A DNA stretch of 64,000 nucleotides from SAR324 cluster bacterium. GTDB taxonomy: Bacteria > SAR324 > NAC60-12. The notes below the pieces were generated by a model. The model made no database searches, was not told where the DNA came from, and worked only from the letters and a program-made list of their open reading frames with translations. This document shows, piece by piece, positions 5,968-35,421 of this stretch. A program made the translations under genes and the position numbers. How positions within the stretch are numbered: the first letter of the stretch is position 1; every line of letters begins with the position of its first letter. The stretch spans positions 1-64,000 of the forward strand of contig JADFZZ010000003.1 in the NCBI GenBank assembly GCA_015232315.1, given 5' to 3'.

Positions 5968-8900
5968 ATGATCATCAAATTTTTGCAGAAACTCAAAGAT
6001 TATCCTTTCCCGGTCATTGGGGTGATTCTGGTCATTACGATTTTGTTTGCCATCAAGGCCGAAAGCCATCTGATCAACGTGGATGGAGATCTGGTGATTG
6101 ATAGTTCACTCGATAATTATATCAGCCGGGATTCTGATTCCTATGAATTTTTCAAACAGATGCGGGATGTGTTTGGCAACGAGGAAATGATGATTGTGGC
6201 CATGCAACCTCACCCTGAAACCGGATTCAATGTGGAATTTTTTGAAGACATGGAGCAGCTTACCCAGCGTATTCCTAAAGAAGTTCCGGGAGTCATGAGT
6301 GTGGTGAGTTTGACCAACACCCCTCAACTGGAAGGCACCTGCGCAGGAAAATCCTATTTGTATTACGAAGAAGCATCGCTCTGCGTCAATATTCTGGAAC
6401 GCTACCGGATGAATCAGCAATGCGCAGGAAAACCGGATTCTGTTCCGGCTGACAGCAATGGTTCCGCCACCACTGATTTTCTGGAAGCGTCTCCCGTTCT
6501 GCTTGGCGATGCGATCACTGAATCCCCGGTCACGACAGATTTTCTGGAAGCGTCTCCTGTCATGCTTGGCGATTCGATGATTGAACCTCCGGTCACGACA
6601 GATTTTCTGGAAGAGTCTCCCGTCCTGCTTGATGAAAGCATGTCGTCCACTGTTGACAGCGCTGTTGTCGAGGTTGAACAACCCAAGGTGAAATGTGTGC
6701 CGGGACTCTTCCAAAATCCGGATGATTTCAAACAGGAAATGGATCGCCGGGCCAGACAGGCCTATGAGGCACTCAAAGGCAATTCCCTGATTCTTAAAGA
6801 TCTCATTTCTTCTGATTTCAAAACGGCCTCCATGCTGGTTCAATTTGGCAATGAGATTCCCCCTGAAGCCAAACAAGTACAAATTGCCATGGAAAACCTG
6901 CTGGCGGAATATCAGGCCAAAGGCTACCGGCTGGCCTATGCCGGGCAATCGCGTCAACAATATCAGGCCTCCAAAGTGCTGGCGGGAGACATTGTGCGGA
7001 TCCTGCCCCTGAGTTTACTGCTGATGGTCGGCAGTCTGGCCTTGTCATTCCGTTCAGCCCGGGGCGTTTTGATTCCGTTGGCTGTGATCGCCCTGGGCAT
7101 GACCTGGACATTTGGTATTTTTTCCATTGTTGGTGAAAATCTGAATCCGGTGACCATGGTTCTACCACCACTGTTGATCTGCGTGGGCAGTGCCTATGTT
7201 ATTTTTACAGTGAACCAATTTTATCAGGAAATCAAAGCTGGACACAACACGGACCGCCGATCTCTGCTGGATCATACGGTGGCTCATGTGACAGTTCCGT
7301 TGTTTGTCACCGCCTTAACAACAGTGGCTGGATTTGCGGCATTGATTGCCAGTCCAATTCCCGCTATCAAAAGCATGGGCTTGTATGCCTGTATCGGAGT
7401 GACCATCATTATTGCGCTGTCGTTGACATTGGTACCAGCCATGCTGTCGTTGATGAACATTCCAGTTTACAAGGAACGAGAGCTGAAACCCGGAAAACTG
7501 GATGATATGCTGAATTTCATGGCCAATCTGGTTGGAAATTACCCCAAGCACCTGCTCTCCATGTGGATTGGAATCGGCGCATTGGGATTGGTGGGCGTTA
7601 CCTGGATTGAAGTGAACAGCGAAGGTGGAGCCTTTCCCGCGGACACACCCATCATGCAGGATCTCAAACTGATCGAAGATCAACTTGCCGGAACCAACAG
7701 TCTGAGACTGGTGTTCCAGAATGACGCGGATCCACATCAATTAAGAACAGCGGCTATGATGCGAAAACTGGATGTACTCAAACACATGCTCATGGAGCCT
7801 GATCCGGAAAGCCCCATTCTAAAAATCGAGGGTTTGCGGATTGATAAAGTCTACACCTTGACCGAGTACCTCAAGTTACGTTATCCGAATTTAGATGAAC
7901 TGACCGATCGCGGTGTTGAACGATTTATCGAACAACTCAGAGCCAACAAGGGACCCAAATTTATCAGTGACAATAATGAGTTGCTACAGTTGACAGTCCG
8001 TCTGCAAACCAGTGGTTCCACTGCGTTTCTGCAATTACGGTCACATCTTGAAAAAATATTGCCTGAAATGTTTCCGGGGTTCACCATCCGTTACACGGGT
8101 GGCGGTGTTCTGGCCAGTGAATCAGCGGACAACATCGCCCGCAGTCAGGTCAGCAGTATGCTTCTGGCGTTGACCATCATTTTTGTCATTCTGTCAGCCA
8201 TGTTCATGTCTGTTAAAATGGGCGTGCTGGCATTGTATCCCAACATTGTGCCCATTCTGGTATTTTTCGGAGTTCTGGGCTGGCTCTCAATTCCGCTGGG
8301 TGTGACCATCTCTGTCATTGCCGCGATCGCCCTTGGAATAGGGGTGGATGATACCATTCATTATTTGGCGCATTTCAATGAAAACGTGAAAAAAATGCGT
8401 AACGAACGCGAAGCATCCCTGTTCACACTGAGACAGGTGGGGCGTCCAGCCACTTACACGACCGTTTCGCTCTGTCTGGGGTTTGGTGTGTTTATGATGT
8501 CAGAAATGGAGACACAGGTTCTCTTCGGCGCTTTGGTCTGCTTCACCTTGCTGGTCTGCTGGATGGCGGACATGAATTTTACACCGGCGATCACCACAAA
8601 AACCAAAATCATCACGGCCTGGGACTATGTGGGAATGCAACTCGATGAAGCATTTCTGAAAACTCTGGAAATTTTTCAGGGCATGTCACTCAAGGAAATC
8701 AAACTGGCCACGCTGTCAGCCTACACCATTGATTTGGAACCGGGAAAACTGCTGTTCAGGGAGAAGGATTCCGGGTATGAAGCCTATGTCATCATCAAGG
8801 GCAAAATTCAGTTGTATCGGGAAGCAGAATTTCATGGCACACAGAAAATCGTTTCAGAACATATTCCCGGTGAAACTCTTGGCGTGCGTGGACTGTTCCG

Positions 8901-9897
8901 CAAGTCTAAACGGACTACCTCAGCGGTGGCGCTTGAAAACACACAGGTGTTGGTACTCAATGATGATATTCTGAAAAAACTGATGGGACGTTATCCCGAC
9001 GTAGCGACCCGTCTCTTTAAAAACTTTGCGACCACCCTGGCCAGACCGATCCAGAATGCGGAGCGGCAGGTTGCTTTTAAATATGCCCAGATGCTTGGAG
9101 AGTTTGAGGGCGATCCTGAAGCGTATGTTACTTTTCTAACAGAGATCGTGGACAGAATTGTCGCGGATGGCTCTATGAGTCCTCAGGAAAAACAGGAAAT
9201 TGAAACCATTGTTTATGCCGATGGCAAGGTGACACCGGAAGAACAGACTCAGTTGGATCGTCTCAACGCCTTGATTGATTCGGGGGAACTGGTGGAAGAA
9301 GAATCGCTGGAAGATCTGGTGAACGCCATCATCGCCGACGGTGAAATTTCACCGGAAGAACGCAAGGCGCTCAACAAGGCGATTTATGCCGATCACAATG
9401 TCAGTGCTGAAGAACAGGCTCAGATTGACCGATTGAACCAGATGATTCAGGACAGAAAGGTGATTGAACACAAACCCGCCTTTGAAAGCATCTTTCAACA
9501 AATGACTCCGAGGGAAATTCGCTGGCTTCGGCACACTTTTGAAATCAAACATATTCCTCAGGGAATGCGTGTTTACTCTGAAGGTGATTTTGGCGATTAC
9601 ATGCTGATCGTCATGAACGGAAAATTCAATATCCATGTGAAGGAAAAAGGCCAGGATTACACCATTGCCACCATTTTTGAAGGCGATGTGATCGGTGCGG
9701 TATCCATTATTCTTAAAGATTACATAAGGTCTCACAGTGCTTCTGTTCTGGAAGAAGCGGAGGTCATGTTCATGAGTCTCAAAGGTCTGGATCGGTTGGA
9801 AAAGACCCATCGCAAACTGGCATCAAAATTTTATTTCAACATGGTGTGCATGTTCTCTGACCGTCTGGAAGAGTGCCTCGATCAATTACAGGGGTAA
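5968..9897 (+). CDS. MMPL/RND-type transporter fused to two cNMP-binding-like domains and TerB-like segments
   Basis: 1309 residues, far longer than plain MMPL exporters. Residues 1-900 are a two-fold RND transporter: a first span near 12-30, a periplasmic loop to about 340, a multi-span block at 341-490, a second loop, then a multi-span block at 731-880 containing GIGVDDTIHYLAHF. A cyclic-nucleotide-binding-like domain follows at about 904-990. Next comes an acidic helical region at 1048-1160 with repeated DG-x-(V/I/M)-(T/S)-PEE/PQE signatures, reminiscent of TerB or helical calcium-loop modules. A second cyclic-nucleotide-binding-like domain is at about 1171-1277. The tail should be cytoplasmic and could gate or localise the pump. 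In the first loop there are three 21-residue tandem repeats. In the first binding domain the canonical Glu of the phosphate cassette is Val, while Arg982 is kept; in the second the Glu is Ala. Substrate is unknown; hydrophobic or lipid-like cargo is usual for the family. Confidence 0.85.
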   Translation: MIIKFLQKLKDYPFPVIGVILVITILFAIKAESHLINVDGDLVIDSSLDNYISRDSDSYEFFKQMRDVFGNEEMMIVAMQPHPETGFNVEFFEDMEQLTQRIPKEVPGVMSVVSLTNTPQLEGTCAGKSYLYYEEASLCVNILERYRMNQQCAGKPDSVPADSNGSATTDFLEASPVLLGDAITESPVTTDFLEASPVMLGDSMIEPPVTTDFLEESPVLLDESMSSTVDSAVVEVEQPKVKCVPGLFQNPDDFKQEMDRRARQAYEALKGNSLILKDLISSDFKTASMLVQFGNEIPPEAKQVQIAMENLLAEYQAKGYRLAYAGQSRQQYQASKVLAGDIVRILPLSLLLMVGSLALSFRSARGVLIPLAVIALGMTWTFGIFSIVGENLNPVTMVLPPLLICVGSAYVIFTVNQFYQEIKAGHNTDRRSLLDHTVAHVTVPLFVTALTTVAGFAALIASPIPAIKSMGLYACIGVTIIIALSLTLVPAMLSLMNIPVYKERELKPGKLDDMLNFMANLVGNYPKHLLSMWIGIGALGLVGVTWIEVNSEGGAFPADTPIMQDLKLIEDQLAGTNSLRLVFQNDADPHQLRTAAMMRKLDVLKHMLMEPDPESPILKIEGLRIDKVYTLTEYLKLRYPNLDELTDRGVERFIEQLRANKGPKFISDNNELLQLTVRLQTSGSTAFLQLRSHLEKILPEMFPGFTIRYTGGGVLASESADNIARSQVSSMLLALTIIFVILSAMFMSVKMGVLALYPNIVPILVFFGVLGWLSIPLGVTISVIAAIALGIGVDDTIHYLAHFNENVKKMRNEREASLFTLRQVGRPATYTTVSLCLGFGVFMMSEMETQVLFGALVCFTLLVCWMADMNFTPAITTKTKIITAWDYVGMQLDEAFLKTLEIFQGMSLKEIKLATLSAYTIDLEPGKLLFREKDSGYEAYVIIKGKIQLYREAEFHGTQKIVSEHIPGETLGVRGLFRKSKRTTSAVALENTQVLVLNDDILKKLMGRYPDVATRLFKNFATTLARPIQNAERQVAFKYAQMLGEFEGDPEAYVTFLTEIVDRIVADGSMSPQEKQEIETIVYADGKVTPEEQTQLDRLNALIDSGELVEEESLEDLVNAIIADGEISPEERKALNKAIYADHNVSAEEQAQIDRLNQMIQDRKVIEHKPAFESIFQQMTPREIRWLRHTFEIKHIPQGMRVYSEGDFGDYMLIVMNGKFNIHVKEKGQDYTIATIFEGDVIGAVSIILKDYIRSHSASVLEEAEVMFMSLKGLDRLEKTHRKLASKFYFNMVCMFSDRLEECLDQLQG
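6469..6657 (+). repeat. three tandem 63-bp in-frame repeats in the transporter gene
   Basis: Units at 6469-6531, 6532-6594 and 6595-6657 encode three 21-residue repeats that each begin TTDFLE(A/E)SPV. The third unit is diverged in its second half. They lie in the first periplasmic loop (residues 168-230), an acidic, Pro/Ser-rich, probably disordered stretch. Confidence 0.85.
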
Positions 9898-9909
9898 ACT
9901 TCATTATCT

Positions 9910-9946
9910 CAGGGGAAATCGTCCCCTGGAGTCGTTTTCATTTTCC
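9910..9946 (+). terminator. hairpin terminator after the MMPL fusion gene
   Basis: CAGGGGA at 9910-9916 and TCCCCTG at 9922-9928 form a perfect seven-pair stem with a five-base loop, followed by T-rich sequence (TTTTCATTTT). It sits between two convergent genes and may act on both strands. Confidence 0.6.
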
Positions 9947-9990: not shown

Positions 9991-10809
9991 TCACTTTTTC
10001 TGAGATTCCAGTTTTTTGAGCCATGCCTTGAGTTCCTCCAGCGAAAGACCTCTGAGCCTGTCTTCAGGAGGCAATCCCTTGAGCCGTTCTTCAGGAGGCA
10101 ATCCTTTGAGCCTGTCTTCAGGAGGCAATCCCCTGAGACGATCTTCAGGAGACAGGAGGCTAAGATGATCCAGGACATATTCTTTTTGAAAATCCTCGAT
10201 GGTGTAGGGCATGATTCCCTCCAGATTATAGGTTTCAAATAAACGGTTGATGATCGTGCTGATGTTCGATGAGTGCATCTGATAATGATCCGCGCCATAG
10301 CGGACTCTTTCAGCGTTGGCGCTGAATAAATTCCAAATTGCGTTCTGTTCCGCGTTTTCCATTTCGGACAACACAATCACTCGAATCAAGCGTGAACCCC
10401 AATTTAAGTCATAAACCCCATTTCTTATTGAGACCAGTTCATTTTGAGTTACCAGTTTCTGCGGAAAGCGGGTGCAAACACCATACAACTGGAAATCTTC
10501 TTCCGGAAGCAGTGTGTCCAGCGAAGGACTGACCTGTTTGCGGTAATTCACATAGTGCCCGATCAATTCGTGGAGCGACCAGTCATCCAGAGGTTCCCTC
10601 ATGGATTTGTAAGTGAGCAAATTGTGAATTTTCAGATTTTCCAGTCCATCTGGTAATTCTTTAAGATCCCCCTCTCCGCACTTGTGCAGGATTACCACAT
10701 CCAGCAACTGACGCTTGAGCGATAAATCCTTTTCGAGTTCTACCTCATAGGGCGAATCGAGAAAATAATCCCACAAAACCAGTCCGAACAGGCGATGCCA
10801 ATGTGTCAT
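9991..10809 (-). CDS. Rpn-like / PD-(D/E)XK-type conserved protein with repeated tail
   Basis: 272 residues. The N-terminal half (WHRLFGLVLWDYF, then EKDLSLKRQLLDVVILHK and HELIGHYVNYRKQVSP) matches a conserved family that is multicopy in delta-proteobacteria, sulfur bacteria and planctomycetes and is usually annotated as Rpn or putative transposase/nuclease related. The acidic and basic residues at about 24-42 could form a PD-(D/E)XK-like core, but I cannot confirm an intact active site. Residues 219-254 are four tandem nine-residue units of the type LPPEDRLKG, followed by a helical end (LSLEELKAWLKKLE). If active, it would cleave DNA and promote recombination. It stands alone, convergent to the transporter gene. 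The family assignment is from memory of similar sequences. Confidence 0.65.
   Translation of the reverse strand: MTHWHRLFGLVLWDYFLDSPYEVELEKDLSLKRQLLDVVILHKCGEGDLKELPDGLENLKIHNLLTYKSMREPLDDWSLHELIGHYVNYRKQVSPSLDTLLPEEDFQLYGVCTRFPQKLVTQNELVSIRNGVYDLNWGSRLIRVIVLSEMENAEQNAIWNLFSANAERVRYGADHYQMHSSNISTIINRLFETYNLEGIMPYTIEDFQKEYVLDHLSLLSPEDRLRGLPPEDRLKGLPPEERLKGLPPEDRLRGLSLEELKAWLKKLESQKK
10048..10155 (-). repeat. four tandem 27-bp repeats in the Rpn-like gene
   Basis: Four consecutive 27-base units encode L(S/P)PE(D/E)RL(R/K)G. The units are nearly identical at the nucleotide level, so copy number can vary by slippage. The array sits just before the C-terminal helix. Confidence 0.85.
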
Positions 10810-15667: not shown

Positions 15668-16120
15668 ATGTCCCAGTCTGTTAAAAAACTCCATATACTG
15701 ACCAATTTCATTTGCCTGCCTTGCGGAAAACACCATCGTTTTGAAACGGGTGTTGATATTTCATTGTATCTGGATCTGCCCAATGATGGAACGTGGCATG
15801 AACTGATTGATCAGATGCCAGAGTTTGTTGAATTGCTGGAGCAGGATGAATTTATGATGCCGTTTTTTCTGAGGTTCCTCCAAGAACATGAAGAGCATGA
15901 CATTCGTTTTCTCAACACCTTGGTTCATGATATGAACGATCTTGTGGAATTGAGACAACAGCATCTCGAGCAAATGATCAGGACTTATGAAACCTGGCAA
16001 CAGGTGCAGTCACAGTTGACTTCCCTGCATATTCAGGCAACGGCTAAATCGTTGCATTTCAATGTAAAATTATCGGCGTCTCCTGTTCGTTATTCCTTCA
16101 GACAAATTCGGGAATCGTGA
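15668..16120 (+). CDS. small hypothetical protein coupled to the hybrid kinase
   Basis: 150 residues, not recognised. The ATG begins immediately after the TGA of the kinase gene, so translation is probably coupled. The N-terminus has a short CLPCGK Cys-pair motif, then a long, acidic, amphipathic helical middle (about 45-115). No membrane segment or signal peptide is seen. The last 23 bases overlap the end of the convergent CheA-like gene. The position suggests an accessory or output protein of the adjacent kinase, but nothing in the sequence proves it. Confidence 0.7.
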   Translation: MSQSVKKLHILTNFICLPCGKHHRFETGVDISLYLDLPNDGTWHELIDQMPEFVELLEQDEFMMPFFLRFLQEHEEHDIRFLNTLVHDMNDLVELRQQHLEQMIRTYETWQQVQSQLTSLHIQATAKSLHFNVKLSASPVRYSFRQIRES

Positions 16121-18164
16121 TTTTCAGCGTCATGCCCTGCCCCTGTTCACTTTCAATCTCCAGAGAGCCACCCAGTTCTTCTACGGCAACCTGCACCGCA
16201 TTCATACCAATTCCCCGTCCTGAGAGATCGGTGACTTCCTCCGCTGTGCTGAACTCCGGAAGCATCAGAATTTTCCAGAGTTCTCCCTTGGCGCTCAATG
16301 ATTCAATCTGTGCCTGATCCACGATGTTCTGCTGTTTCGCTTTTTTCAGGATGTTCTCATAATTCAGTCCCTGTCCATCATCAGAGAGATGAATCATCAA
16401 CTGATTGTTTTCTGTGAAAGCGTAAAACTGAATCAGCCCTGTCTCCTCCTTGTCTTGCCGCAATCGGTCTTCAGGCAGTTCAATTCCATGGTCCACAGAA
16501 TTGCGGATCACATGGACCAGCGGAGCGCTCAGGGCTTCAAAAATCTGCTTTGAAACCAGAATGTTGTCACCAGTCGCCAGGAATTTCACTTTTTTCCCCA
16601 AAGTTTCACTCAATCTGCGAATTTCATCATTCCACCCCTTGATCATGGCTCGCAAGGGCAGAGTTTCCAGTTGATTCACCAGTTGACGTAGCTGTTCAAG
16701 GTTTTCTGTTTCTGCCGCCTGTTTCAGCATTTGGAAGCGTTCAGGAGAGAGCACAATACCTGTCAACCTTGCTTTCAAATCATCACTCATGCTGTCCAGT
16801 AACATGTGAGCGGAATTCATGTGTTTTGCCAGTTCCTGTCTCATATGAAAATATTTATCAGTGTTGCTTTTCTGTTGCCGGACATCTTTCAGATAATCTT
16901 CCAGATGATGGGCAAGATCCTTGATTTCAGTGAGTTCAAACATGCCGCAACTGCCTTTGAGACTATGAATATCACGAACCAGTTGAGTCATGAACTCTGA
17001 AGCAGGCTGATTGCCACTGTCCATATATTTCTCAAATAGGCTCAACTGATACAGCGATTCATCCATCAACTGTAAGACATTGATATACGCATCAGGATTA
17101 TCATATATTTTTTGCATAACCCGGCGCTCTGTTTCGAGATGTTCACTTTTTCGGGACAAGGCCAGTTTTTCCGTGATATCCTCCAGTCCGATATCAACCG
17201 CGAGGATATCACCTGCCGGGCTAAAGCAGGGGTAATAGGACAAAACCAGAGTCTGTGTTTCCTGTTGAGCGTTAATCAGGGTGGTCTGATGCGGGAACAA
17301 TTCCGCGATTTGTTTGAAATCCATCAGGGTGTCTTCATAGAGCAGGGGATAAACCTGTACCCAGTCTTGTTTGGCAGTGAGATCATTTTGAAACATCAAT
17401 TCATGAAACGGCTGTCCAGCGATACGGCTCACGTTGAAATATTTCATGAATTGTGTCGAAAACTCATTGGTGATGTTTCCATCCCTGTCCACTTTGACCA
17501 GGCCCTGAGGGGTGTGCTGAAGCACTTCACTGAGGCGGCGGGTGATCATCTGCAGGCGTTCTGATGATTCTCTGAACAGGAGCTTCCATAAACGGGGGGT
17601 TTTATTGACGACCTCCATGAAAAATTTTCGTTCAATCCTCAACACTCTGCTGAAGGTGAGGGTTCTGACAGTTGCGGAGGCCTTGAATTCGCCGCGCAAA
17701 CAGGACATTTCGCCAAAGCATTCATTGCGTCCCCTCACAGCGACCAGTTCATTGTTGACATAAATTTCCACGTTGCCTTCTTCCAGATAATACACAGCAT
17801 CCGCTGTTTGATCCTGTGTGAGCAGATTCATCCCCGGTTTCACGAGGCGTTCCTGCATTTTTTGCGCAAGCCCCAACAAATCAATGGGTGCCAGTTCTTT
17901 GAATAAGGGCACATTTTTCAGCAGTTCGACTCTGGCGTTCTGTTTTTTGAGTTCATCCTCACGTTTGATGTCATTGAGTTGAACCATATTGGCCAGGACC
18001 GAACCATACCGCTGGGTAATCTGATGGAGTTTCTGCTGAGATTCATCATCCAGTAAATCCGTATGGTTTGCCATTTCCTGCTGAATTTTCTCCCATAAAT
18101 CTCTAATATTTTCGGGCAGTACCAGCCCGTTTTTTTCAAAAGCCATAATTCGGTTTGCCTCCAT
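16098..18164 (-). CDS. CheA-like kinase with cNMP-binding-like, PAS and Hpt domains, no CheW-like domain
   Basis: 688 residues. A coiled N-terminus is followed by a cyclic-nucleotide-binding-like domain (about 85-185, with FGEMS but Lys/Ala where the phosphate-binding Arg is expected), a PAS-like domain (about 205-335), an Hpt domain (phospho-His 400 in HSLKGSCGMFEL), and a CheA-type HATPase (HVIRNSVDHGIELP at 551-564, DDGQGL at 595-600, GRGIGM near 654). The protein ends at the HATPase, so the P5 domain that couples CheA to CheW and receptors is missing. It is therefore more likely a soluble, ligand-controlled phosphorelay kinase than a chemotaxis CheA. Its start follows the TGA of the upstream gene directly; an internal ATG at 18146 with GGAGG upstream is a good alternative start. 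Confidence 0.85.
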   Translation of the reverse strand: MEANRIMAFEKNGLVLPENIRDLWEKIQQEMANHTDLLDDESQQKLHQITQRYGSVLANMVQLNDIKREDELKKQNARVELLKNVPLFKELAPIDLLGLAQKMQERLVKPGMNLLTQDQTADAVYYLEEGNVEIYVNNELVAVRGRNECFGEMSCLRGEFKASATVRTLTFSRVLRIERKFFMEVVNKTPRLWKLLFRESSERLQMITRRLSEVLQHTPQGLVKVDRDGNITNEFSTQFMKYFNVSRIAGQPFHELMFQNDLTAKQDWVQVYPLLYEDTLMDFKQIAELFPHQTTLINAQQETQTLVLSYYPCFSPAGDILAVDIGLEDITEKLALSRKSEHLETERRVMQKIYDNPDAYINVLQLMDESLYQLSLFEKYMDSGNQPASEFMTQLVRDIHSLKGSCGMFELTEIKDLAHHLEDYLKDVRQQKSNTDKYFHMRQELAKHMNSAHMLLDSMSDDLKARLTGIVLSPERFQMLKQAAETENLEQLRQLVNQLETLPLRAMIKGWNDEIRRLSETLGKKVKFLATGDNILVSKQIFEALSAPLVHVIRNSVDHGIELPEDRLRQDKEETGLIQFYAFTENNQLMIHLSDDGQGLNYENILKKAKQQNIVDQAQIESLSAKGELWKILMLPEFSTAEEVTDLSGRGIGMNAVQVAVEELGGSLEIESEQGQGMTLKITIPEFV

Positions 18165-19077: not shown

Positions 19078-20754
19078 ATGTCTCATTTTTTTTGCAGAAA
19101 AATATTGATCTGGATAACAGGAATCACACTGTTCAGTTATATGTCTGCACAAGCCCAGAAGTCACCAGAAATCTCAGAAAATTCTGTAGAGTTTTTTGAT
19201 CAGGATCCGTTTGAATCGTCCAAATCCAATTCTCCAACGGATCCATCTCTCGGGTTGGAAGAAGATCCGTTTGCCACGTCACCTGAAAAAAGTGAGCCAT
19301 CCCCTGGTTTTGAGGAAGACCCCTTCACCAAACAACCCGCAAGCAATACGCCACCATTATTACCCAAACCTGATTTGCCGGAGGACAAGAATCAAAGTCC
19401 ATCGGTTTCCAAAGATACGGGTCTGGCTGGAACACCAACGGAATATACGCCAAGATTTTCATTCAGTCACAAATACCGTGTATTGGGCGGGTTTACAGAA
19501 ACGCATGGTCTGATTTCTATTGAAAACCAGGATTTTATCATCAAGGAACTCCGTCTGATCACATCCTATCAGCAAACAATCCGTATCCGAACGTCAGCAA
19601 ATTTTTATAACTATGTCCGGATCAATGTAACATTCGCTCAGAATTATGACACCCATAACCAACAATATGTCGATAACCAATCGGCTTTGAGGGAAATTTA
19701 TTTCAATTATCAATTTGATGAACATCAGATTCGTGCGGGTTCTCAGGTCTTTCGTTTGGGCAAGGTCGATTTCGACAGTGTCATTGATAATCTGAATCCA
19801 ACCAACTTCAATATCCTGAACACGCTGGATCCTGATTCAGGAAAAAAATCCCTGACCGCAATACGTTACAATTGGTACAAGCATAAACGGTCCTTCACCG
19901 TTTATCTGGATCCGCTCCAGCAAAAAACGCCGGGTATGGAATATACTGATTTCCGGGACGATTCGCAAAAGCGTGAGCGGGGTGAGCGTCCGGACAGCAA
20001 ATCGTTCATCCGGGATTATTTTGGACTGCAATATGAATGGCTTGGTCACTGGGACACGCGTATTTCATTTTTTCACTGGTTTGACACGGACAATGACATT
20101 TCATGGGAATATATCCGTAACGCACAGGAAGATGATCAATTTTTGGTGGGCAAAAACGCCCTAACTCATTTTGTGGAAACTTTTTATGAAAAAGAATCCA
20201 TCAGCAATTTTGCTACGCTGGAGACAGACACCACCTTTGGCAGTTATGTCTGGAAATTTGAAGCAGGGTTGTTTGACCGAAAAAACTTTTATCACCTCAA
20301 TCGTCTTCATTCTGATTATCTGATTTTTGATACAGTCCGTGTGCCTTATGTGGCATCCTCCACCTCCATCGAACGACTGTTTTCCAAGTTATTTCTCATG
20401 GGGATTGTTTCATATCGTCATTTGTTCGGGGTTCCTGAAGACACGCATATTCTGATGTTTGAAAATTATGAAGCCCCGCTGGATCAGAAACGGGATCTGG
20501 AACGCTTTCAGATGACAGGCGTATTGATCTGGGACATGACCAGTCAATGGAAAGTGAATCTGGCAGGATTTCAGAGCACACCGTTTGCTGTCAAGGGCGT
20601 GATGAACAATTGGATCTGGAATCGACAGGAATATAATTCTCAATGGCAGATCAAACTCCTTCATGGAGAAACAGATGAACAAAAAATGTTGAATAAAAAA
20701 ATCTTTTCAAATCAGTTTTTTGTTGTTTATCAACGTGTTTTTACAGAACTTTAA
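19078..20754 (+). CDS. outer-membrane beta-barrel protein with EDPF-repeat N-terminal linker
   Basis: 558 residues. A signal peptide (about 1-27, ending SAQAQ) is followed by a disordered acidic, Pro/Ser-rich linker (about 28-125) with three spaced (E/Q)DPF motifs. From about 125 to the end there are alternating amphipathic strands typical of DUF1302- or porin-like barrels, for example LREIYFNYQFDEHQIRAGSQ. The final segment VVYQRVF may be the barrel's closing strand. It probably sits in the outer membrane; cargo is unknown. There is no good ribosome-binding site at 19078. A short 21-codon frame starting at 19043, right after GGGAGG, overlaps this start and may couple translation. An in-frame TGA just upstream excludes a longer protein. 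Confidence 0.75.
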   Translation: MSHFFCRKILIWITGITLFSYMSAQAQKSPEISENSVEFFDQDPFESSKSNSPTDPSLGLEEDPFATSPEKSEPSPGFEEDPFTKQPASNTPPLLPKPDLPEDKNQSPSVSKDTGLAGTPTEYTPRFSFSHKYRVLGGFTETHGLISIENQDFIIKELRLITSYQQTIRIRTSANFYNYVRINVTFAQNYDTHNQQYVDNQSALREIYFNYQFDEHQIRAGSQVFRLGKVDFDSVIDNLNPTNFNILNTLDPDSGKKSLTAIRYNWYKHKRSFTVYLDPLQQKTPGMEYTDFRDDSQKRERGERPDSKSFIRDYFGLQYEWLGHWDTRISFFHWFDTDNDISWEYIRNAQEDDQFLVGKNALTHFVETFYEKESISNFATLETDTTFGSYVWKFEAGLFDRKNFYHLNRLHSDYLIFDTVRVPYVASSTSIERLFSKLFLMGIVSYRHLFGVPEDTHILMFENYEAPLDQKRDLERFQMTGVLIWDMTSQWKVNLAGFQSTPFAVKGVMNNWIWNRQEYNSQWQIKLLHGETDEQKMLNKKIFSNQFFVVYQRVFTEL

Positions 20755-31764: not shown

Positions 31765-32910
31765 GTGGCCAGAATTCTGATTTTGGATGATGATGAGTCC
31801 GTGGTGACTCAAACAGAACAGATGATACGGAGTTATGGGTATATCCCGCTGGGGATTACACAGCCTGATCGTCTTATGGAGATGCTGAAACAGAATAATG
31901 TTGATCTGGTTCTGCTGGATGTTCACATGCCTGAAATGAGTGGTATTGAACTTCTGAAGCAACTCAAACACTCAGTCTCCTACCGAACCATTCCGGTGGT
32001 CATGCTCACCAGAGATACTCGTGAGGAAGTACTGGAAGAATGCCTGAATTCAGGTGCCGCCGATTTTATCAATAAACCATTTAGTCCGGTTGTTCTTAAG
32101 GCACGATTGCAATCGGCCCTCAACACACTTTCCTTTGTTCGAAGTCAGCAACGCTTGATTGAGGAACAGGAATTCATTACCCAGAAACTACATGAAGAAC
32201 TGGAAATGGCGGGTGAGATGCAAAGTCATCTCATGCGTTCAGACCCTCTGCCTCCTCACTACAAATCCGCCATGTTTTTTCGCCCTTACAGTCAGGTTTC
32301 AGGCGATTTTTATAATCAGCAGGTGACGGATGGCAGTTTGCATATATTCCTTGGTGATGCGACTGGGCATGGTATCACTGCCGCCTTATTGACCATGATG
32401 CTTAAAGCCGGATTAAGCTCAATTCCAGCATCAACAAGTCCCGCCAATGTTATGTGGCAACTCAATCATTTACTGAAAAAAAGCATTCCGGGTGGGATGT
32501 TTGTGACAGGGATCTATCTTAAAATCAATGCGGATGGATCTCTGGTAATGTGTAATGCAGGGCATCCTCCGTTGCTTGTTTTTCCTGAAAATGGGAATGA
32601 ACCTGTTATTCTGGATGACAGTGGTGTCGCGTTAGGGATTTTTAAAAATGAAGAAATCGGGAGGTATGAACAGGTTGCCTATCGTTTGAATCCACGGGAC
32701 AAAGTATTCATTTTTACGGATGGCATCACTGAATATCAACACCAGAAAAAAGAACTGGGTATTCAAGGTGTGACGGATTTTTTATGGAATCTCAGACATC
32801 TGGATATCAGCATTATGGTCAATAAATTATCAGGCCTCCTCACGCCAATACGCCCCCAGACCGTGAAAGATGACATGACCTTCTTTGCGTTTGAATATCT
32901 GGGCGCATGA
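31765..32910 (+). CDS. response regulator with PP2C-type (SpoIIE/RsbU-like) phosphatase output
   Basis: 381 residues, starting at GTG 31765 with AAGGA upstream. A receiver domain (about 1-120; acidic pocket LDDDE, phospho-acceptor Asp52 in LLDVHMPEMSG, conserved Lys in FINKPFSP) is joined by a coiled linker to a PP2C-family serine phosphatase (about 165-378) with SGDFYN, LGDATGHGITAALLTMM, CNAGHPPLLV and TDGITEY. Such proteins dephosphorylate anti-sigma-factor antagonists when the receiver is phosphorylated. No STAS antagonist or RsbW-type kinase is encoded in this window, so the partner is elsewhere. Cytoplasmic. Confidence 0.93.
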   Translation: MARILILDDDESVVTQTEQMIRSYGYIPLGITQPDRLMEMLKQNNVDLVLLDVHMPEMSGIELLKQLKHSVSYRTIPVVMLTRDTREEVLEECLNSGAADFINKPFSPVVLKARLQSALNTLSFVRSQQRLIEEQEFITQKLHEELEMAGEMQSHLMRSDPLPPHYKSAMFFRPYSQVSGDFYNQQVTDGSLHIFLGDATGHGITAALLTMMLKAGLSSIPASTSPANVMWQLNHLLKKSIPGGMFVTGIYLKINADGSLVMCNAGHPPLLVFPENGNEPVILDDSGVALGIFKNEEIGRYEQVAYRLNPRDKVFIFTDGITEYQHQKKELGIQGVTDFLWNLRHLDISIMVNKLSGLLTPIRPQTVKDDMTFFAFEYLGA

Positions 32911-33087
32911 GCAATCCCTGTGACAAAAATCAACATTTCGACTGTTCAGGTATCTGTTGTGGCTCAGGATTTTGAATAATTCTTAATCCTTGAAGTGGCT
33001 TGCGAACAGCAGATTGTCCTGCTATCTGATGCAACTATTATTCGAGGCCCGGTTTTGGGTGCTTTCCAACTATCATCCGGAGATTCT

Positions 33088-35421
33088 ATGATGAAAAATT
33101 TTATTAAAAAATGGGGAGAAATTGTGGTGGATTACCGTTGGGTGGTTCTGGCACTGTCCGTAGTGCTACTAATCGCTTCGATTCTTCCGATGAAAAATCT
33201 GTATTTTGACAATTCCAATGAAATGTTTTTTCTCAAAGGAGATATCAATCTGGTCACCTTTGATAAATTTCTGGACCGGTTCGGCGATAGTGAATACCTG
33301 CTGATTGGTCTTGAAAGCCGTCCACAGGACAAAAATGTGTTTAATGAAGACACCTTGAAAACCATTGCCAAAATTACGGAATTTCTGGAAAATCATGAAG
33401 TCGTGACCAAGGTTTCATCTCTCACTAAATATCAATATATCAAATCGGAAGACGATGTTCTTTCCACGATAGATCTGATCGAAGACATGGGACAACTTTC
33501 CTATGACCAGGATTCCATGGATCATCTGGTTTCCATCATGAACGAAGAAGAACTGGTGCACGGTGCCTTGATCAGCAAAGATTTCAGACACACCGTCGTT
33601 TTTGCCAGAACGCAATATGTTCGGGGTAAAGCCGATCATCAAATCAAGCTGATCAATGAATTGAATGCGTTTCTGGCAAAAGAAAACTTTGAAAAGCTGG
33701 GATTCAATATCCGGATTTTTGGCGGACCATTGCTTGCGGAGCGTTTTCTGAATGTCACGATCCAGGATCAGATGCTGATCAATCCGCTCATGTACAGTAT
33801 CATTCTGTGTTTGTTGTTTATTTCATTCCGCACTGTTACCGGAATCCTGATGCCGATAATGATCATCGCGGGCAGTCTGGTTCTAACCATTGGCCTGCAA
33901 GGATTTCTCCACTGGCCGTTCAATACTGTCAACACGGCTCTTCCGGGGATTCTGACCATTGTGGGTATTGGAGATTCGATTCATATCATTGTAGAATTTT
34001 ATCATTTTCGCAATGAAGGACTCGACCCCCGACAAGCCGCAAAAAAATCTATTGAAGTTTTGTGGTTGCCCTGCTTTTACACATCTTTCACCACTGCTGC
34101 CGGCTTCATTGCGTTGTCTGTCACCAAGCTTGCACCGATTCGGGAACTTGGTGTTCTAGGGGCCAGTGGAACGATGCTTGCGTTTTTGCTTTCAGTCGTC
34201 ACACTTCCGGCGATTCTCAGTTTTATCAAGCCATTGCCTGTCGCGACACAGAAAATTGTTTCGGAAGGGATCATTGCCCGGTTCACCCACCAACTCGCGC
34301 ATTTCACTCATCAGAATTATAAATGGCTCATTGCTGTCGGAGGAATCGGACTTGTGGCTGGTTTAGGGCTGGTCAGTCAACTGGATGTTGATACCAATTA
34401 TGTGAATTATTTTAAGAAAAATACCAAATTACGCTCAGACATTGAGTATTTTGATCAGGTGTATCAAGGCGGGAGCACTATTGAATTCATGATTGATTCA
34501 GGGGAAGAAGGGGCCGTTAAAAATCCTGATTTTCTCAATAAAGTGCTGCACATGCAGGAATATCTTGAAGGACTCGATGGAACGGGAAAAGCCAATTCCA
34601 TGATCAATTATATCCGTAAAATGAATCAGGCCATGCACAATGACGATCCCACGTTTTATACTATTCCTGAAACAAGGGAACTGATTGCTCAATATCTATT
34701 GCTGTATGAAAACACCGGGCCGGAAGAAAACCTTATGGATATGAGAACTTCTGATGATCGGTATTTGCGTCTGAGTCTCAGAATCAAAAATATGACAGCC
34801 CTTAAAACGCATACGCTGGTCAAAGACATTCAGGACTACCTCCAGCAAAATTACCCTGAACTTCCTGCGGAATTGACAGGAACACTGATGTTGTTCAATG
34901 CTCAGGATGTTTATACCCAGCAGGGAATGGTTCGATCCTTCGGATTGGCGTTGACCATGATTGGATTGATGTTTTTTGTGCTGTTTCGTTCTGTCAAATA
35001 TGGTTTTCTGGCGTTGGTGCCCAGCATTCTACCCATTTTGATGGCGGGCGGCCTTATGGAGCTTTTGGGCATTTCTCTTGACATGGGAACCATGATTGTT
35101 GGCGCGATGACCATGGGAATCGCGGTGGATGATACAATTCATGTGTTGAATCGCTATCTTCAGGCCAGAAAAAATAATCGCACTGTCGAAACCAGTATTC
35201 ATCTTGCGATGATCGAATCCGGACGAGCCGTGATCTTCTCATCCATCATCCTGACTGCGGGTTTCAGTGTTATGTTGCTGGGGTCCTTCATGCCCTTTAT
35301 CTACATGGGAATTTTTTCTGCCATCATCATCATGTTTGCGTTGATCGCCGATCTGTTTTTCCTGCCGGCCCTGTTGTATGTAGTTGATGGTGGAAGGATG
35401 AATTCTGACAAAAAAACGTGA
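33088..35421 (+). CDS. MMPL/RND family exporter
   Basis: 777 residues from ATG 33088, chosen because CGGAG precedes it; an upstream GTG at 32995 would add a polar, unlikely N-terminus. It has a two-fold RND layout: span 1 near 18-36, a periplasmic loop, a five-span block (about 225-390) with GIGDSIHIIVEFYH, another span, a second loop, and a final five-span block with GIAVDDTIHVLNRYL. The length fits the HpnN/MMPL lipid exporters. Unlike the larger transporter at 5968 it has no cytoplasmic regulatory tail. A lipid or hydrophobic substrate is likely but unproven. The glycosyltransferase gene follows after six bases. Confidence 0.88.
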   Translation: MMKNFIKKWGEIVVDYRWVVLALSVVLLIASILPMKNLYFDNSNEMFFLKGDINLVTFDKFLDRFGDSEYLLIGLESRPQDKNVFNEDTLKTIAKITEFLENHEVVTKVSSLTKYQYIKSEDDVLSTIDLIEDMGQLSYDQDSMDHLVSIMNEEELVHGALISKDFRHTVVFARTQYVRGKADHQIKLINELNAFLAKENFEKLGFNIRIFGGPLLAERFLNVTIQDQMLINPLMYSIILCLLFISFRTVTGILMPIMIIAGSLVLTIGLQGFLHWPFNTVNTALPGILTIVGIGDSIHIIVEFYHFRNEGLDPRQAAKKSIEVLWLPCFYTSFTTAAGFIALSVTKLAPIRELGVLGASGTMLAFLLSVVTLPAILSFIKPLPVATQKIVSEGIIARFTHQLAHFTHQNYKWLIAVGGIGLVAGLGLVSQLDVDTNYVNYFKKNTKLRSDIEYFDQVYQGGSTIEFMIDSGEEGAVKNPDFLNKVLHMQEYLEGLDGTGKANSMINYIRKMNQAMHNDDPTFYTIPETRELIAQYLLLYENTGPEENLMDMRTSDDRYLRLSLRIKNMTALKTHTLVKDIQDYLQQNYPELPAELTGTLMLFNAQDVYTQQGMVRSFGLALTMIGLMFFVLFRSVKYGFLALVPSILPILMAGGLMELLGISLDMGTMIVGAMTMGIAVDDTIHVLNRYLQARKNNRTVETSIHLAMIESGRAVIFSSIILTAGFSVMLLGSFMPFIYMGIFSAIIIMFALIADLFFLPALLYVVDGGRMNSDKKT

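Follow-up and report, generated by a model that had tools for sequence, protein, structure and literature searches.

A SAR324 RND-type pump fused to a tail with two cyclic-nucleotide-binding-like domains

Bacteria of the SAR324 lineage encode a family of RND-type pumps that are fused to a C-terminal tail of cyclic-nucleotide-binding-like domains (cNBDs). The member described here, P0001, is encoded at positions 5968-9897 (+ strand) of the window, the 64,000-nucleotide stretch of DNA that was analysed (C3:1-64000 of a 5.25 Mb source genome), and joins an MMPL/HAE3-type pump to a tail with the order cNBD1, two TerB-like units, and cNBD2. Whether P0001 is a diverged paralog of the inner-membrane pump of a SAR324 trans-envelope exporter for hydrophobic compounds or lipids, with the family tail serving as a cyclic-nucleotide gate, seems to us evenly balanced. 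SAR324 is an abundant, uncultured lineage common in the deep ocean, and little is known about its envelope lipids and signalling. The fusion family offers a testable target for what the rich cyclase and cNBD signalling of these organisms controls.

The P0001 gene and its domains

The gene consists of one uninterrupted ATG frame encoding 1309 amino acids, with a ribosome-binding site (AGGAGAGG) immediately 5ˊ of the start codon. Directly 3ˊ of the stop codon is a terminator-like hairpin with a T-rich stretch after it (positions 9909-9929, + strand), which is a consensus match only. P0001 is confirmed as a real, intact gene encoding a pump with a sensor-like tail, and the single intact frame reported in the first-pass annotation is upheld.

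The pump body occupies residues 1-880 (positions 5968-8607, + strand) and comprises two MMPL halves as judged from Pfam, sequence motifs, and hydropathy. The MMPL model (PF03176) matches in two stretches (119.1 bits versus a cut-off of 20.5, E 2.6e-34), which places the protein in the MMPL/RND superfamily and agrees with the earlier description of a complete two-fold RND transporter. HAE3 (TIGR00921) is the best NCBIfam match, at 188.9 bits against a curated cut-off of 351.9 that it does not reach. Assignments as the hopanoid transporter HpnN (TIGR03480; 96 versus a cut-off of 752) and the sterol transporter BstA (NF045600; 24 versus 1400) were rejected. Both share the MMPL/RND fold and the two halves with P0001, but their models contain no such tail.

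Hydropathy places transmembrane segments at residues 13-31, within 342-493, at 529-547, and within 731-869, and the tail comes after the last transmembrane bundle. The RND fold suggests a total of 12 transmembrane segments and a cytoplasmic location for the tail. TM10 and TM4, which are assigned by motif and hydropathy only, carry GIGVDDTIH at residues 790-798, with D794 and D795 conserved, and VGSAY without the usual Asp, respectively; SAY replaces the Asp-Tyr pair in most family members. The pump residues D794, D795, and four loop cysteines are invariant in the family and present in P0001. A 63-bp tandem repeat of 2.6 copies (positions 6468-6631, + strand) gives rise to the acidic TTDFLEASPVLLGD repeats that lie between the conserved residues Cys152 and Cys243 of the first periplasmic loop.

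In the tail, the cNMP_binding model (PF00027) matches two stretches above its cut-off (E 1.7e-28), which assigns both to the cNBD family. cNBD1 (positions 8731-8991, + strand), identified by Pfam and by a genome-wide scan, has the phosphate-binding cassette LGVRGLFRKSKRTT, in which Val973 stands in place of the ribose-binding Glu and Arg982 is kept. Functional cNMP sensors carry Gly-Glu plus Arg (FGE...RxA), and the equivalent residues in P0001 read LGV...R. cNBD2 (positions 9547-9804, + strand), located by the genome-wide scan, has the degenerate cassette FEGDVIGAV, where GE has become GA and IGAV occupies the place of GE in functional cassettes.

The first TerB-like helical unit (positions 9136-9288, + strand; residues 1057-1107) is defined by AlphaFold and internal alignment, and the second (positions 9307-9459, + strand; residues 1114-1164) by these same approaches and by a Pfam TerB match at residues 1117-1163. 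The two units are an internal duplication, since they align with a score of 125, whereas none of 2000 shuffles scored above 43. The protein also contains four acidic repeats of the ADGxxSxEE type. The TerB match (PF05099) exceeds its cut-off (26.2 versus 24.4 bits) but covers only 47 of 118 profile positions, and the model is reached by only one of 23 tails (26-30 bits, 47-48 of 118 positions). An AlphaFold model of the tail (mean pLDDT 85) predicts two cNBDs with six helices between them in two triplets. Fold searches with the whole tail return the cNBDs of PKA, PKG, Epac, and CRP, and the low TM-scores for the whole tail reflect a different arrangement of the domains relative to one another. 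The tail of cNBD, TerB-like repeats, and cNBD named in the first-pass annotation is thus right in content and order, and both cNBDs pass their profile, but the name TerB denotes a marginal and partial match.

Several other genes in the window deserve mention. The gene after the pump (positions 9991-10809, − strand) encodes a 272-aa protein that ends in LPPEDRLKG tandem repeats and includes a 27-bp DNA repeat at positions 10053-10151; searches of Pfam, NCBIfam, and PHROGs yielded no useful match for its product. Another cNBD fusion is encoded at positions 16098-18164 (− strand), a 688-aa protein with a cNBD in its N-terminal half and an end that resembles a CheA kinase. The window also encodes another MMPL-type pump, an ordinary one of 808 aa without a tail, at positions 32995-35421 (+ strand), adjoining a response-regulator/phosphatase-like gene at positions 31765-32910.

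Distribution of the fusion and its partner genes

The fusion, recognized as a match running from the pump into the tail, is found in at least 28 of 52 sampled SAR324 genomes; a 29th (G003), whose tail looks broken, was left out of this count. Full-length homologues with 31-44% identity share the layout of P0001 over their whole length, and this layout is therefore beyond chance. The source genome itself has three copies, and the two besides P0001 are neighbours in convergent orientation on a different contig and are 43-44% identical to it overall. With these paralogs and relatives, the fusion can be neither a singleton nor a product of misassembly. The scan also recovered many further MMPL proteins (loci L089-L132), and all of them lack a matching tail, in keeping with the initial remark that MMPL proteins usually lack one.

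The named records with the fusion carry the labels SAR324 cluster or Lambdaproteobacteria and, in some cases, Deltaproteobacteria, Myxococcota, Campylobacterales, or Marinimicrobia; the labels Marinimicrobia, Myxococcota, and Deltaproteobacteria are not species-tree placements, and those records may belong to SAR324. Three loci in genomes labelled Deltaproteobacteria or Myxococcota (L066, L069, and L071) encode a pump-cNBD-cNBD fusion without carrier or barrel genes nearby, and L066 and L069 have a common downstream gene that is HD-domain-like by eye. Among 59 genomes taken as relatives of the L069 genome, three have the fusion and none belongs to the SAR324 set of genomes.

Every complete tail contains cNBD1. 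The number of TerB-like units is zero, one, or two, and the linker length varies freely. One paralog in the source genome (L009:10539-14411, contig C19) lacks a TerB-like unit and instead has a C-terminal PilZ domain (PF07238; 40.5 versus 22.5 bits, E 3.6e-10) with the canonical c-di-GMP motifs RxxxR (RYANR) and (D/N)xSxxG (NISLTG). Both of its cNBD cassettes keep GE...R, and it is possible that cNMP and c-di-GMP inputs converge on this one pump.

Clustering of the genes that neighbour the fusion pumps revealed two recurrent partners. The first is a secreted protein of about 280 aa with conserved cysteines and weak similarity to LolA. The LolA_like model (PF17131) matches seven of 12 of these carrier proteins (best E 6.8e-6); a carrier score of 24.4 is below the Pfam cut-off of 30. 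The second is a predicted outer-membrane β-barrel of 420-780 aa with an acidic, leucine-rich, repeated N-terminus. Its structural model resembles outer-membrane barrels such as AlgE and Occ/porins (Foldseek probability 1.00, TM about 0.5), and it matches no Pfam or NCBIfam family. Neither DUF1302 nor DUF1329 was matched by any of 12 barrels or 12 carriers, and PDB sequence searches with carrier and barrel profiles gave chance-level matches only, including one LolA-type entry (E 0.18).

Almost every SAR324-type locus for which sufficient flanking sequence is available has a barrel gene, a LolA-like gene, or both next to the pump. Most of these loci have the order carrier, barrel, pump, with typically 8 bp from the barrel stop to the pump start. 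The first-pass annotation had called for a search for the same architecture and its neighbours, and the result is an architecture conserved across SAR324, mostly in an operon of this kind. The parts are scattered in the source genome, where a carrier gene immediately precedes a paralog on C19, a barrel-carrier pair is on C2, and a barrel gene is in the window (positions 19078-20754, + strand). This last gene encodes a 558-aa homologue of the barrel whose gene immediately precedes that of the pump in relatives, with a disordered N-terminus bearing acidic LEEDPF repeats. No carrier or barrel gene adjoins P0001; this barrel gene, the closest one, lies 9.2 kb downstream and is separated from the pump by other genes, and no carrier is near.

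The N-termini of this barrel and its homologues (e.g. L044 and L060) contain long acidic tandem repeats (LGLEEDPLAESD), and similar acidic leucine repeats (LEESLEEGLEES) occur in the first periplasmic loop of the pumps; in P0001 they correspond to the 63-bp tandem repeat. Enrichment of the acidic motif is strong in barrels (83 versus 5.9 expected) and modest in pump loops (8 versus 1.1), and is driven by few sequences. The repeats in the pump loop and barrel N-terminus are possibly a shared docking element.

Possible control by cyclic nucleotides

One indication that the tail might sense a ligand is the cNBD1 cassette, which retains Gly-Glu and Arg (FGE...R(S/T)A) in 33 of 36 distinct tails. 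The common family form is the 14-residue FGEMGLFxxxxRSA, with the length and key residues of F56GEMALIDNQNRSA69 in Bd1971, a cNBD-EAL protein of Bdellovibrio that binds both cAMP and cGMP according to its structure and calorimetry (PMC6717892). Bd1971 is among the top PDB matches of a paralog tail (E 7e-14), its cassette (FGEMALIDNQNRSA) is nearly that of the family cNBD1, and its cNBD controls the partner domain (PMC6717892). The two cases differ in that the output of Bd1971 is a soluble EAL phosphodiesterase rather than a membrane pump, and in that P0001 is without the cassette Glu.

The source genome has 45 class III cyclase domains, 46 cNBDs over the cut-off, and 13 GGDEF domains, which points to a very rich cyclic-nucleotide network as predicted from its genes. 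With this many predicted cyclase and GGDEF domains, the ligands are likely present in the cell. P0001 may not bind cAMP or cGMP in the standard way because the cassette Glu is lost and the cNBD2 cassette is degenerate, and of the three copies in the genome it appears the least likely to do so. The Glu is also lost in L065/L078. In a quick pump-body tree that includes long branches, P0001 groups with single-unit members away from this pair, and the loss therefore seems to have happened twice.

Our preferred model, which draws on analogy as well as on sequence, is that P0001 would be an inner-membrane RND pump of the HAE3/MMPL type for a hydrophobic or lipid-like substrate, presumably driven by protons via Asp794 and Asp795 of TM10. 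In relatives, the set is a LolA-like periplasmic carrier, an outer-membrane β-barrel, and the pump, all from one operon. The pump might pass its substrate to the carrier and then to the barrel, from which it would be handed on to the outer membrane or the outside, as has been proposed for AmeABCD (PMC6394551). The cytoplasmic tail with its two cNBDs would be an allosteric gate that locks or releases the pump upon nucleotide binding. Specifically, cNBD1 of the family might bind cAMP or cGMP, and the resulting change would reach the pump via the domain's C-helix and the TerB-like spacer, with an extra c-di-GMP input in the PilZ paralog. P0001, as a diverged and separately transcribed member, would probably respond weakly, respond to another ligand, or keep its tail for assembly. 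The model is weakened by the cassette changes in P0001, by its want of adjoining partner genes, by the sub-threshold scores of the pump for HAE3 and of the carrier for LolA_like, by the barrel's failure to match a family, and by L066 and L069, homologues from genomes that are not close to SAR324 and show no carrier or barrel genes in the vicinity. A broader generalization is that, in SAR324, binding of cyclic nucleotides to the fused tail would act as a direct post-translational switch on RND pumps for lipids or hydrophobic compounds, that c-di-GMP would be a further input in the PilZ paralog, and that the pumps would belong to a trans-envelope system with a LolA-like carrier and a barrel family that are both new. 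This generalization is tentative and falls a little short of an even chance.

Other explanations differ in what the tail does. The cNBDs and TerB-like helices could be a structural scaffold that dimerises the protein or docks it to a partner in the cytoplasm, in which case no member of the family would bind a small ligand. The lost Glu in P0001 and L065/L078, the degenerate cNBD2 of many members, and the freely varying linker fit this explanation, but the near-universal cNBD1 cassette resembles that of a proven sensor and would be unexpected for scaffolding alone, which makes it unlikely. A view in which the TerB-like units sense a divalent metal as the main control of the pump would draw on the four acidic repeats and the above-cut-off TerB match. 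However, that match is partial and marginal, and many homologues, the PilZ paralog among them, keep cNBD1 but have no such units; we regard this as very improbable. The original suggestion that a small molecule or divalent metal controls the pump is accordingly divided: small-molecule control is plausible for the family on the basis of its cassettes and weakest for P0001, and the metal is without direct support.

P0001 might alternatively be a decaying paralog that lacks both partners and a working sensor. The missing Glu, the absence of an adjoining partner gene, the tandem repeat in the periplasmic loop, and the two better-preserved paralogs elsewhere in the genome would be explained by decay. 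This too seems improbable, as the 1309-aa frame is intact and has a ribosome-binding site, the two TM10 aspartates and four loop cysteines are retained, and a conserved barrel homologue is located 9 kb away. A final alternative leaves the gating proposal unchanged and concerns the cargo, which could be toxic hydrophobic compounds such as solvents, terpenes, or alkanes rather than an endogenous lipid. AmeABCD has the same kind of parts and confers monoterpene tolerance (PMC6394551), and Thalassolituus TOL_3187, which has an adjoining porin, is induced 42-fold on C28 alkane (PMC6304351). Conservation in most members of the phylum, including those with small genomes, suggests instead a housekeeping cargo, and no degradation genes were seen beside the P0001 locus. 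We consider efflux of toxic compounds quite possible but somewhat doubtful.

Relation to known systems

RND pumps are mostly controlled at the level of transcription or by small partner proteins, and a second-messenger sensor fused to such a pump would be a direct and fast switch. The closest known gene set is AmeABCD of Castellaniella defragrans, which consists of the HAE3 pump AmeD, the DUF1302 barrel AmeA, the LolA-superfamily/DUF1329 protein AmeB, and AmeC (PMC6394551). Its genes, like those at the loci of P0001's relatives, specify an MMPL/HAE3 pump, a barrel in the outer membrane, and a periplasmic protein of the LolA fold. In these relatives the gene set resembles the AmeABCD type, in contrast to the P0001 locus with its distant barrel and no nearby carrier. 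No cNBD, TerB, or PilZ tail has been reported for AmeABCD, no AmeC counterpart was seen in SAR324, and the SAR324 partners match neither of the DUF families above. In Thalassolituus oleivorans, TOL_3187/TOL_3188 similarly places an MMPL and LolA-like module beside a porin, but the LolA-like domain of TOL_3187 is fused to the pump, no cNBD is reported, and the protein is linked to growth on long-chain alkanes (PMC6304351).

Regulatory domains plugged into a transporter are also known from a different superfamily. The portions consulted of a 2023 review describe MFS transporters fused to cNBD, PAS, or UspA domains, and cNBD fusions are given there for MFS only, with none mentioned for RND pumps (PMC10710835). 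No published RND pump with tandem cNBDs, and no system with the order seen in P0001, was found in the open-licence literature, where absence is not proof; the first-pass annotation likewise knew of none. The pieces of P0001 belong to known families, and automatic annotation may already list its domains, yet the combination of an RND pump with tandem cNBDs appears to be new. If the gating model is true, we know of no earlier example of an RND pump under direct gating by a nucleotide second messenger.
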